From Gemmatimonadota bacterium (GTDB taxonomy: Bacteria; Gemmatimonadota; Gemmatimonadetes; Longimicrobiales; Gaopeijiaceae), in assembly GCA_016873995.1 (NCBI GenBank), contig VGVR01000004.1, positions 62,001 through 126,000 on the forward strand: a stretch of 64,000 bases of DNA, written 5' to 3'. The position numbers and the translations under genes are program-made. The notes under the pieces were generated by a model. It saw only the letters and a list, made by a program, of their open reading frames with translations, made no database searches and was not told where the DNA came from. This document shows positions 158 to 25,190 of the stretch, piece after piece. The number at the start of each line of letters is the position of its first letter. The first letter of the stretch is position 1.

Positions 158-161
<4 letters not shown>

Positions 162-1558
162 GCAACCTCCTCGGCGGCTGGCCGGTCGCCAGTCGCATCG
201 ATGTTCTTCCGCAGCGTTCTCCGTCCTACCTCGCCCACGATCAACGTCACGGGCGACTCCAGCTCCGCGGCGCGTACCGCATCGGCGAGCGTCGCGAGCG
301 TACCCGCCACGACACGTTCGGTCTCGCGCGACGCCCCACCGACCGCGATGGCCGGCGTATCGGGCGCGCGGCCTTCTTCGATCAAGCCGCCCAGCGTTTC
401 GTCGATGGCCGCGAGCGCCATCAGGACGATGACGGTCTCGTCACGCGGGTCGAGACGGCCCTGGGTGGCACCCTCGACATCACGCCCTGTGCGCACCGAG
501 AAGCCCTTGGCGAGTCCGCGCTGCGTGAGCGGGACGCCAGCCGCCGCCGGGGCTGCGAGCACGGCACTCACACCCGGCACGACCTCCCACGGAATCCCTT
601 CCGCCTCGAGTGCATCCACCTCCTCCCCGCCCCGCCCGAACACGAAGGCGTCGCCCGCGTGCAGGCGCACCACGCGCTTGCCCTCGCGAGCCTTCTCGAG
701 CATCAACGCGACACGACGCGCGTCCCCCTGCGCTTCCCTCACGACGGCACGGGCGCGCCGGCCCACGTCGATCAGCTCGGTGCCGGGCAGCGCGAGCGCG
801 AGCACGTCGTTCTCCACCAGGGCGTCGTGCAGGATCACGTCGGCGCGCTGGATGCGGTCGAGCGCGCGCAGCGTGAGCAGCTGTCGGCTCCCCGGGCCTG
901 CACCCACGATCGCTACCGTACCCGGCTCGAAGGGCTCTTCAGTCTCGTGGAACAGGGCCTCCAGACGGGCGCTGGCCGCCTCGGTGTCGCCGCGATCGAC
1001 CAACTTGGTGATCGTCGGGTCGGCGAGCGCCCTCAGGAGCCGCCCCCGCTTGGCAAGACCCTTCAAGCCGCGGTCCCGCACGCGCACCAGCAGCTCGGCC
1101 ACATCCGTGAGGCTCCGTGGGATGATCGCTTCCAGCAGACGCCGCAGCTGACCCGCGAGGAGCGGAGAGCCGCCGTCCGTGCTGATCGTCATCACCACCG
1201 GCCCCCGCCGAACGACAGCCGGCGAGTAGAAGTCGCAGTACGGCTTGTCGTCGGCGGCCTGCGCGAGGATCCCCTGTGCGCGCGCCGCATCGACCAGGAG
1301 TCGGTTCACGTCGTGGTCACTCGTCGCGGCAACCACGACCTTGGCGCCGGCGACGTCCGCCTCGGTGACCGGCCGGAGCTCCACCTTCCAAATGCGGTCG
1401 AGCCAGCGCTCCAACTCCTCCGACACGTCCGTGGTCACGACGTGCACCCGCGCGCCGGCGTGGATGAGGGGCACGACCTTCTCGGCCGCGACCGGCCCCC
1501 CTCCCGCGAGGAGGACGCGTTCGCCCTCGAGCGTCACCAGGTGAATGGGATATCCCAT
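158..1558 (-). CDS. cysG: siroheme synthase CysG-type (precorrin-2 dehydrogenase/ferrochelatase + uroporphyrinogen-III C-methyltransferase)
   Basis: This 466-residue protein makes siroheme for sulfite or nitrite reductase. Residues 1 to about 200 are the NAD-dependent precorrin-2 dehydrogenase/ferrochelatase half: a Rossmann loop (VLLAGGGPVAAEK, near residue 15), the DKPYCDFYSPA segment and GGSPLLAGQLR. From about residue 210 comes the SAM-dependent uroporphyrinogen-III methyltransferase half with VAIVGAGPGSRQLLTLRA, the HDALV stretch and GRGGEE. Length matches classical bifunctional CysG (about 460). The C-terminal half ends earlier and more weakly conserved than in Escherichia coli. The start at 1558 fits the MGYPIHLV motif typical of the N-terminus. 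Expression probably depends on the leader peptide and terminator at 1626-1759 just upstream. It is followed by the coupled reductase gene. Confidence 0.93.
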
Positions 1559-1625
1559 GATCTCACTTCGCCGTTTCGCTTCGTTCTCTCGCTGCGGACC
1601 GCACTTCGGGTGTCAGAAACACGAA

Positions 1626-1655
1626 AGCCCCGGCTCCCTCAGGGAAGCCGGGGCT
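1626..1655 (-). terminator. leader terminator (attenuator) upstream of cysG
   Basis: A hairpin with arms AGCCCCGGCT (1626-1635) and AGCCGGGGCT (1646-1655), extended inward by CCC/GGG around a short loop. Reading the minus strand it is followed by TTTCGTGTTTCT, a modest U-rich tail. It lies between the stop of the poly-Cys leader ORF (1676) and the cysG start (1558), as expected of an attenuator. The minus-strand GGCTCGGG at 1691-1698 can pair with CCCGAGCC at 1652-1659, which overlaps the terminator arm, so an alternative antiterminator fold exists. Confidence 0.75.
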
Positions 1656-1675
1656 CGGGAGACTCGCCGCGTCCG

Positions 1676-1759
1676 TCAGTCGCGGTCGGTCCCGAGCCGG
1701 CCCTCCCTGGGCCCGGCCGGGCGACAACAGCAACAGGCGTTTTGGCCTATCTTACGCAT
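1676..1759 (-). CDS. poly-cysteine leader peptide of cysG (27 aa)
   Basis: The minus strand from 1759 reads MRKIGQNACCCCRPAGPREG and seven more residues, ending at TGA (1676-1678). Residues 9-12 are four consecutive cysteines (codons TGT TGC TGT TGT), followed by Arg. It lies between a promoter-like sequence (1818-1844) and the terminator at 1626-1655, 117 bases upstream of cysG. A run of codons for the pathway end product before a terminator is the hallmark of amino-acid attenuation; poly-Cys leader ORFs upstream of sulfur genes are known from mycobacteria. The same CCCCR string recurs in front of cysH in this window (9781-9876), which makes chance very unlikely. There is no strong Shine-Dalgarno in front of the ATG. 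Translation of the peptide itself is inferred. Confidence 0.82.
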   Translation of the reverse strand: MRKIGQNACCCCRPAGPREGRLGTDRD

Positions 1760-8994: not shown

Positions 8995-9693
8995 TCAGGT
9001 CAGCGTGTGCAGGCCGCACTCGAGGCGGTCCTTGCCGCGCCACCGTCCCGCTCGTTCGTCCTCACCGGGAAGCGTGGGCGTGGTGAGTGGCTCGTCCCCG
9101 ATGCTGGTGTATCCGCGGTCGTGCAGCGCGTTGTATGGGACGCTGTGGTCGTGGATGAACCGCCACACGTCCTTGCGCGTCCAGGCTGCGAGCGGGTTCA
9201 CCTTGATGCGATCCCCGATCTCGACCGCCGGCATGTCCGCGCGCGACGACGCCTGGTCGCGACGGCGCCCCGTGATCCAACCAAATACGCCCTGAAGCGC
9301 CCGCTCCATCGGCTCGACCTTGGTCAAGCGATGGAACTCGTCGAGGTCCCGCTCCCAGAGCCGCTCGCCGTGCAGACGCTCGAACTCATCGCGCGTCTCG
9401 GCGGGACGGTAGATGCGCACGTCGAGCCCGTACCGTTCCGAGACCTTGTCCGCGAGCTCGAGCGTCTCGGGAAAGTGATGCAGCGTATCGATGAAGACCA
9501 CCGGCACCTCAGGAGCGATCTCGGCCACCAAGTGCAGATTCACCATCCCGGAAGGGCCGAAGGCCGTCGCGACCACGAGGTGCTGCGGGCCTACGTTGTT
9601 GACGGCCCACTCGATGATGCTCGACGGATCGGCGTCGTCGAAGTCGAAATCGAGCTCACGCGCGGCAGGCGCCTGCTTCTTGATGGCGATCAC
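8995..9693 (-). CDS. cysH: phosphoadenylyl-sulfate (PAPS) reductase
   Basis: A 232-residue cytoplasmic enzyme that reduces activated sulfate to sulfite with thioredoxin. Seen in the sequence: the PP-loop-like ATAFGPSGMVNLHL (about residues 43-56), VFIDTLHHFPET, the WITGRRRDQASSR substrate loop, VNPLAAWTRKDVWRFI and the C-terminal catalytic ECGLH. The paired cysteines that hold a 4Fe-4S cluster in APS reductases are absent (HRLTKVEPM where CCxxRKVxPL would be), so this looks like the cluster-free PAPS type. Its product feeds the siroheme sulfite reductase at the left end of the window. It lies 28 bases behind a strong intrinsic terminator and a poly-Cys leader, so it is probably controlled by cysteine supply. 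Other sulfate-activation genes are not in the window. Confidence 0.92.
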   Translation of the reverse strand: MIAIKKQAPAARELDFDFDDADPSSIIEWAVNNVGPQHLVVATAFGPSGMVNLHLVAEIAPEVPVVFIDTLHHFPETLELADKVSERYGLDVRIYRPAETRDEFERLHGERLWERDLDEFHRLTKVEPMERALQGVFGWITGRRRDQASSRADMPAVEIGDRIKVNPLAAWTRKDVWRFIHDHSVPYNALHDRGYTSIGDEPLTTPTLPGEDERAGRWRGKDRLECGLHTLT

Positions 9694-9721
9694 GTGCTCT
9701 CCGATGTGTACCTGAACGAAA

Positions 9722-9753
9722 AAACGGCCCCGGGGATCTCCCCGGGGCCGTTT
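9722..9753 (-). terminator. leader terminator (attenuator) upstream of cysH
   Basis: A perfect 15-base-pair inverted repeat (9722-9736 with 9739-9753, arms AAACGGCCCCGGGGA and its complement), followed on the minus strand by TTTTTTCG. It is a strong Rho-independent terminator, yet lies upstream of the cysH start at 9693 and downstream of the leader stop at 9781, so it must be bypassed for cysH to be expressed. The minus-strand GCCCCCGGGGAC at 9805-9816, just after the Cys codons, contains CCCCGGGG that can pair with the same octamer in the terminator arm. Confidence 0.85.
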
Positions 9754-9780
9754 GGGCGTCTGTCTCAGGATCGACTGGCG

Positions 9781-9876
9781 TCAACCGCTGGGCAGGGCGC
9801 TCCTGTCCCCGGGGGCTTGGCGACAACAACAACACCCGCGGGAGTTGGAGAGGAGCATCGAGCCGAGCGTGTTCAT
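9781..9876 (-). CDS. poly-cysteine leader peptide of cysH (31 aa)
   Basis: From the ATG at 9876 the minus strand reads MNTLGSMLLSNSRGCCCCRQ and eleven more residues, stopping at TGA 9781-9783. Residues 15-18 are four TGT cysteine codons in a row, followed by CGC Arg, the same CCCCR signature as the cysG leader. An internal ATG (M7) is an alternative start. GAGG lies about 12 bases before the first ATG, a loose ribosome-binding site. The peptide ends about 28 bases before the perfect terminator hairpin at 9722-9753, and cysH follows. The arrangement implies that ribosome stalling on scarce Cys-tRNA relieves termination; translation and mechanism are inferred. Confidence 0.85.
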   Translation of the reverse strand: MNTLGSMLLSNSRGCCCCRQAPGDRSALPSG

Positions 9877-9900
9877 GGTCGTGTGTAACCTCAAGGGCAA

Positions 9901-9929
9901 ACCTGTGTTCCGGCTCCAGGCATTGTCAA
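9901..9929 (-). promoter_or_regulatory. putative promoter of the cysH leader transcript
   Basis: The minus strand carries a perfect -35 hexamer TTGACA (9929-9924). At 17 bases spacing the -10 position reads ACAGGT (9906-9901), a poor match. The position, about 25-50 bases ahead of the leader ATG, is right for a promoter, but the weak -10 leaves the call tentative. Confidence 0.4.
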
Positions 9930-10035: not shown

Positions 10036-10524
10036 ATGAAGGGATCGCGTTGGATGTGCGGAGCGGCAGCAGCCGGAGTCCTGGGACTTATCTCGGCCGG
10101 GCCCGCCGGAGCCCACCACGCCTTCGGCGCCGAATTCGACGCCGATTCGCCGATGCAGATCGAAGGCGACGTGGTCCGACTCGAGTGGGTGAACCCGCAC
10201 TCGTGGATCCACCTCGCGGTGCGTCGCATGGTCATCGGTGGCCAAACCGTCACCCCAGCCGACCCGACCGCCGAGGTCTGGATGGTGGAGGGCGGTACAC
10301 CCAACGTGCTCGTGCGCCGCGGGCTCCGTCGCGAGTGCCTCCCCATCGGCTCGCGCCTCGTCGTCGACGGCTACCGCGCCAAGGATCAAACGCTCAAGCG
10401 TGCGAACGGTCGCGACGTGACGTTCCCGGACGGGCGTAAGTTCTTCATGGGCTCCTCCGGTACCGGGGCACCGCAAGATGGGCGCGACAATGCGGCGGCA
10501 AACAGCGGCGAAGTGAGGTGCTGA
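10036..10524 (+). CDS. DUF6152-family exported protein
   Basis: A 162-residue secreted protein with a signal peptide (about residues 1-26, ending PAGA) followed by HHAFGAEFDADSPMQ and GDVVRLEWVNPHSWIHL, the signature of the DUF6152 family (a small beta-barrel-like domain of unknown function common in Proteobacteria, Acidobacteria and Gemmatimonadota). A conserved GGTPNVLVRRG and PIGSRLVVDGYRAKD follow. The ATG at 10036 is preceded by GAGGAGAAA at good spacing. It begins a run of three same-strand genes for exported proteins (this one, a cytochrome c', a cupin). No function is known; the histidines just after the cleavage site might bind metal, which is speculation. Confidence 0.85.
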   Translation: MKGSRWMCGAAAAGVLGLISAGPAGAHHAFGAEFDADSPMQIEGDVVRLEWVNPHSWIHLAVRRMVIGGQTVTPADPTAEVWMVEGGTPNVLVRRGLRRECLPIGSRLVVDGYRAKDQTLKRANGRDVTFPDGRKFFMGSSGTGAPQDGRDNAAANSGEVRC

Positions 10525-24980: not shown

Positions 24981-25016
24981 AAAAAAAGCCCCGGGCGGCA
25001 CCGACCACCCGGGGCT
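24981..25016 (-). terminator. intrinsic terminator oriented on the minus strand, without an obvious upstream gene
   Basis: Arms AGCCCCGGG (24987-24995) and CCCGGGGCT (25008-25016) with a 12-base loop; on the minus strand it ends in seven T. It lies just after the plus-strand YeeE pair but points the other way, and no minus-strand gene lies to its right before 26.8 kb. It may end an antisense or small RNA, or act weakly in the plus direction. Confidence 0.6.
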
Positions 25017-25190
25017 GAGCCGTCGAAGGCGGTCCCCCACTTCCCGTCCCGACCCCACCTGCCTCAGCACGCGGCTCATCCCATGGGACAGGAATACCGC
25101 CCCAATGGTTGCCTCTCATGGCCGACCGGACTTGCCGCACAGCGCCGCCGCTCGCCATTCATTGACGTCCCCCTGGAAGGAGTTCATCCC

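Follow-up and report, generated by a model that had tools for sequence, protein, structure and literature searches.

Upstream of cysH in the window (the whole stretch of Gemmatimonadota DNA analysed here, 64,000 nucleotides), a short open reading frame (ORF) with a run of cysteine codons is followed by a strong hairpin. Do the two together form a switch that reads the supply of charged tRNA-Cys, and do other sulfate-reduction genes follow the same rule? In our assessment, the cysH leader is very probably a classical ribosome-mediated transcription attenuator responding to charged tRNA-Cys. A preliminary description of the locus had proposed a poly-Cys transcription attenuator and one rule for the sulfate-assimilation genes, and the comparison of genomes agrees with both, with the layout recurring at cysH, cysC-cysH, sir, and cysG-sir.

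The 31-codon ORF with four TGT Cys codons upstream of cysH was found as described, on the minus strand at 9876-9781 (Table 1). The hairpin that follows it, AAACGGCCCCGGGG-AGAT-CCCCGGGGCCGTTT (9753-9722; -30.7 kcal/mol), carries the expected U-run (9724-9719) and ends 28 nt before the cysH start codon, a GTG at 9693; its stem is indeed perfect, at 14 bp and not the 15 bp first counted. The leader also contains a sequence able to pair with the stem arm, as had been suggested: CCCCGGGG at 9814-9807 is complementary to the 5' arm of the terminator. The strength of the stem by itself does not demonstrate that cysH is silent. We found no clear -10 box for the cysH leader of the window and no strong Shine-Dalgarno sequence for its ORF, and a Rfam scan of the leader gave sub-threshold matches only, none over the gathering threshold. 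The leader region sits between divergent genes; the divergent neighbour of cysH encodes a DUF6152 protein, and a small ORF without a match in Pfam comes after it (window 10036-10524). A screen of the 64-kb window for hairpins resembling intrinsic terminators, with 8 bp or more in the stem and TTTT behind it, yielded one short hairpin of 8 bp and a pair of long ones, of which the cysH hairpin is one. The other long one lies at 24986-25017 on the minus strand, with no obvious co-directional gene.

A sister leader with its own terminator precedes cysG, and the sulfite reductase gene lies 3' of cysG, past the window edge (G000:C4:60401-61684). The description of the two sulfate-assimilation loci as unlinked was wrong, since the cysG-sir and cysH units are neighbours about 8 kb apart on the same strand.

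Table 1. Features of the cysH and cysG-sir leaders in window coordinates
Feature	Position	Strand	Remarks
cysH leader peptide ORF, MNTLGSMLLSNSRGCCCCRQAPGDRSALPSG, 31 codons + stop	9781..9876	-	homologous leaders in G001, G002, G003
Four consecutive UGU Cys codons (regulatory codons), TGTTGTTGTTGT	9823..9834	-	
Segment 1, GCUCCUCUCC	9847..9856	-	predicted protector/pause hairpin with segment 2 around the Cys codons, unconstrained fold
Segment 2, CCCCCGGGGACAGGAGCG	9798..9815	-	predicted 5' strand of antiterminator
Segment 3, GACGCCC + terminator 5' arm AAACGGCCCCGGGG	9740..9760	-	partner: segment 2 (antiterminator) or segment 4 (terminator)
Intrinsic terminator, 14-bp perfect GC stem (9722-9753) + U-run (9719-9724)	9719..9753	-	
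cysH, PAPS reductase, GTG start at 9693	8995..9693	-	NCBIfam TIGR02057, PRK02090, TIGR00434
Candidate -35 box, TTGACA	9924..9929	-	conserved in G003
Sister leader ORF before cysG, MRKIGQNACCCCRPAGPREGRLGTDRD	1676..1759	-	four Cys codons, 1724-1735; antiterminator strand 1691-1710
cysG-leader terminator	1625..1656	-	
cysG, siroheme synthase	158..1558	-	

In the proposed mechanism, RNA polymerase would transcribe the leader while a ribosome behind it translates the 31-codon peptide. With Cys-tRNA plentiful, the ribosome would pass the four UGU codons, reach the stop codon, and cover segment 2, whereupon segments 3 and 4 would form the 14-bp terminator and transcription would stop before cysH. 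With Cys-tRNA scarce, it would stall on the UGU codons and segment 2 (CCCCGGGG plus GGAGCG) would stay free; segment 2 could then pair with segment 3 while segment 4 is still to be transcribed, and the polymerase would continue into cysH. The sister attenuator would work likewise for cysG-sir. From this layout we infer translation of the leader ORF, stalling, termination, and the cysteine response, and cysteine shortage is probably the condition for making CysH.

We folded the leaders as they would be with a ribosome at the first Cys codon, before the 3' arm of the terminator is made. In all four cysH leaders of the genus, the predicted fold joins CCGGGG, which lies 3' of the Cys codons, to the CCCCGG in the 5' arm of the terminator, and the inner helix of the same predicted antiterminator involves a conserved ACGCC just upstream of the terminator. 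With the ribosome placed at the stop codon instead, the terminator had a probability of 0.88-0.97 in this group. The unconstrained fold contains an additional hairpin between the codons before the Cys run and segment 2, and a longer antiterminator is predicted for the cysG leaders. The terminator loop is the part not constrained by the terminator itself, and among 23 representative leaders these loops extend the complementarity to segment 2 beyond random loops (Fisher p 0.005), with the signal coming mainly from cysG, G054, G037, G020, and the second G409 leader. For the cysH leader of the window, the pairing of segments 2 and 3 reaches -20.9 kcal/mol, yet it is not better than that of shuffled segments (p 0.13; 20/60). 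The arms had been put forward for a covariance check, and two compensatory pairs were indeed present in each of two genus alignments, at a level not above shuffles; we regard the covariation for the antiterminator as suggestive. A mutually exclusive antiterminator is thus likely rather than proven, since the shape is shared and the loop test is positive, but neither the shuffles for the cysH leader of the window nor the covariation reach significance. Equilibrium folding favours the terminator even when the ribosome is stalled; the switch would then have to depend on kinetics, as known attenuators do.

The arrangement is conserved across the phylum. Four family-level groups together supplied 37 Cys-rich leaders, each standing before cysH, cysC-cysH, sir, or cysG-sir, so that relatives do carry such leaders before sulfur genes, against the possibility raised beforehand that they might not. 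A Cys-cluster leader lies upstream of cysH in 12 of 12 genomes of the same family with readable upstream sequence (G000-G003, G007, G020, G034, G036, G037, G042, G054, and G409); G027, whose contig ends about 38 nt upstream of cysH, is outside this count. Further leaders precede cysG-sir (G000, G002, G003, G004), sir (G032), and one sir operon (G077, family-level group f3), and they are found before cysH, cysC-cysH, or sir in group f6 and before cysC or sir in group f7. Among the downstream genes tested against Pfam, four were APS kinases and two sulfite/nitrite reductases. All 33 leaders that were scored have a GC stem with a T-run after them, and the terminators of the four others that make up the 37 were read from the sequence. 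For G007 and G409_a, which offered two terminators, later steps relied on the nearer one. The distance from the Cys codons to the terminator 5' arm is usually 60-75 nt, and longer in f6 and f7. Within the genus, all changes in the leader Cys codons are synonymous. The CCCCR string did not stand as a shared signature: the leader clusters also read CCCCH, CCCCCR, CCAMCC, CCPCC, and CCCM. As a control, a match was obtained in one of 62 cyanobacterial cysH upstream regions. The nearest named record for the window CysH is a Lake Baikal metagenome-assembled genome (87% identity), and the window itself belongs to Gemmatimonadota. A poly-Cys leader also precedes a Gemmatimonadota-type cysH on one contig labelled Gammaproteobacteria (L048, JAHEKL010000172.1), which is probably mis-binned.

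The regulon put forward at the outset would cover sulfate-reduction genes, to which the leaders are limited, and not ATP sulfurylase, with Cys-rich leaders at none of 26 sat upstream regions. They were likewise absent from the dissimilatory-type reductase loci of G023 and G033, and in G046 there is one Cys-rich ORF and no Cys-rich leader assigned to dissimilatory-type reductases; an extension of the regulon to either class of gene was rejected on these grounds. Cys-rich leaders were also absent at the main cysH operons of f3, at the sir genes of G005, G020, G054, and G057, and, within the short upstream stretch read, in several f7 genomes.

Some leaders are more elaborate. Two complete poly-Cys leaders, each with terminators, stand in series before cysH in G409 (L204), and two serial terminators whose 5' arms both match a single antiterminator strand are present in G007 (L021) and G042 (L022). 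Downstream of the Cys codons, eight f6 leaders (L218, L220, L221, L222, L225, L227, L228, and L238) keep an almost unchanged GGGGAGCGGACGCGG with complementarity to the 5' arm of the terminator, and in f6 leaders one Cys codon lies directly before a hairpin that a stalled ribosome would open.

The most unusual feature of the Cys leaders is their codon choice. Their Cys codons are TGT in 103 of 136 cases (~76%), compared with 17 of 113 for genes in the window and 71 of 303 for those of relatives, a contrast whose p-values overstate independence because the leaders are related to one another. TGT is thus the disfavoured codon in genes, at 15-23% of Cys codons. Repeat slippage was rejected as the cause, isolated leader Cys codons being equally TGT-rich (23/30). 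Like the enterobacterial his, trp, leu, and thr attenuators, the leaders combine biased regulatory codons, predicted alternative 2:3 and 3:4 hairpins, and a U-run terminator (theory: PMC1183508), and selective charging of isoacceptors is the accepted explanation of biased leader codons (PMC1183508). The leaders described here depart from those attenuators in that their amino acid is Cys. Typing of 42 of 47 tRNAs in an assembly 94.6% complete identified only one tRNA-Cys (GCA); the other five matches, at 83-84 nt, are too long for an ordinary tRNA-Cys. With a single tRNA-Cys, selective isoacceptor charging would not apply. The bias may come from slow wobble decoding, or it may reflect avoidance of unwanted RNA pairing. 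It is possible, if rather doubtful, that the leaders make up a phylum-wide cysteine regulon whose attenuators use the disfavoured UGU on purpose: with UGU and UGC apparently both read by this one tRNA-Cys(GCA), slow wobble decoding would have been selected for.

TGTTGTTGTTGT is a triplet repeat within a GC-rich region, and one might suppose that such a repeat reads as Cys codons by chance beside an ordinary gene-end terminator. When the 350 nt upstream of cysH and of cysG were each dinucleotide-shuffled, a poly-Cys short ORF arose in ~1% of cases, which argues against this, as do the divergent-gene region, where no co-directional upstream gene needs a terminator, and the phylum-wide recurrence with non-repeat Cys clusters that show the same excess of TGT. 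To judge from the sequences, conservation in relatives already contradicts coincidence, which we consider exceedingly improbable. The 3.37-Mb genome contains 16 matches to TGYTGYTGYTGY, which fall in about nine places with at least four consecutive TGY codons; of these places only two, the cysH leader and the cysG leader, are short ORFs that have a start codon and are not contained in longer ORFs. For runs of three Cys codons (CCC) the genome has 228 places. The CCCCR string had been said to lose its meaning if it were equally common far from sulfur genes; in the genus, CCCC strings of short ORFs occur only at the leaders and in one start-less relic, and the remaining Cys runs in five genus genomes all lie within longer ORFs. 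The relic (G004:C16 near 20933; L274) resembles the cysH leader and precedes an ORF with no Pfam match; no cysH was detectable in G004. A functional Cys-rich micropeptide, for example a metal- or thiol-binding one next to an unrelated terminator, is suggested by clusters such as CCPCC and CCRC, which resemble metal-binding motifs. This is very unlikely: the non-Cys parts of the peptides vary between lineages in length and sequence, their tails coincide with the RNA pairing strand, and the leaders always adjoin a terminator before sulfur genes.

A closer competitor to transcription attenuation is translational or Rho-dependent attenuation, the mode proposed for actinobacterial Cys leaders, in which a stall on the Cys codons would make the cysH ribosome-binding site, or Rho sites, more or less accessible, with a secondary part for the hairpin. 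Precedents come from the mycobacterial polycysteine short ORFs, which are cysteine-responsive attenuators (Canestrari et al. 2020, Mol Microbiol 114:93, as cited in PMC13236596, PMC9031893, and PMC9094748), and from actinobacterial leader peptides of cys operons and cbs, which contain runs of Cys codons and no conserved terminator hairpin (Seliverstov et al. 2005, PMC1262725); in addition, G042 has an extra CCC short ORF directly before cysH, 3' of its terminators. In each of the 33 leaders scored, a GC stem and T-run separate leader from gene, a feature missing from the published description of the actinobacterial cases; this makes such a reading quite unlikely for Gemmatimonadota and favours transcription attenuation. 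The Gemmatimonadota leaders resemble the mycobacterial ones, as these are portrayed in the citing papers, in having contiguous Cys codons in short ORFs upstream of sulfur or cysteine operons, for which higher expression under cysteine shortage is proposed, and the actinobacterial ones in the Cys-codon runs within leader peptides that precede cys operons. They differ from both in the terminator hairpin. The same accounts describe the mycobacterial short ORFs as leaderless and their control as translation attenuation, whereas in Gemmatimonadota, a different phylum, a strong intrinsic terminator with a U-run follows each leader. The ATG lies ~10 nt after a putative -10 box in G002 cysG and G003 cysH, and farther in G000.

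The closest counterpart in layout is the uORFC-8-2 motif upstream of cysS in Rhodobacterales (PMC8632094), where a Cys-codon upstream ORF is likewise followed by an intrinsic terminator and the same mechanism is proposed. That motif has two tandem Cys codons, mostly UGC, and serves cysteinyl-tRNA synthetase in Alphaproteobacteria, whereas the Gemmatimonadota leaders have 3-6 Cys codons, mostly UGU, and serve sulfate reduction. A 2010 survey noted that, before its own finding in Firmicutes, leader-peptide systems were known only in Proteobacteria and Actinobacteria (PMC2965389), and our literature search returned no earlier report of a leader-peptide attenuator in Gemmatimonadota. Attenuation by Cys leaders is therefore a known principle, of which the Gemmatimonadota leaders would be a further instance. 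Taken with the mycobacterial and alphaproteobacterial cases, they suggest more than one origin of Cys-codon attenuation.

For Gemmatimonadota, these results predict a regulon responsive to Cys-tRNA and give a pointer to the control of sulfate reduction in a major, poorly studied phylum of soil and water. A UGU design rule, if true, would fall outside the accepted account of biased leader codons. With a UGU preference and a single tRNA-Cys, the question of why leader codons are biased becomes testable where the usual answer fails.
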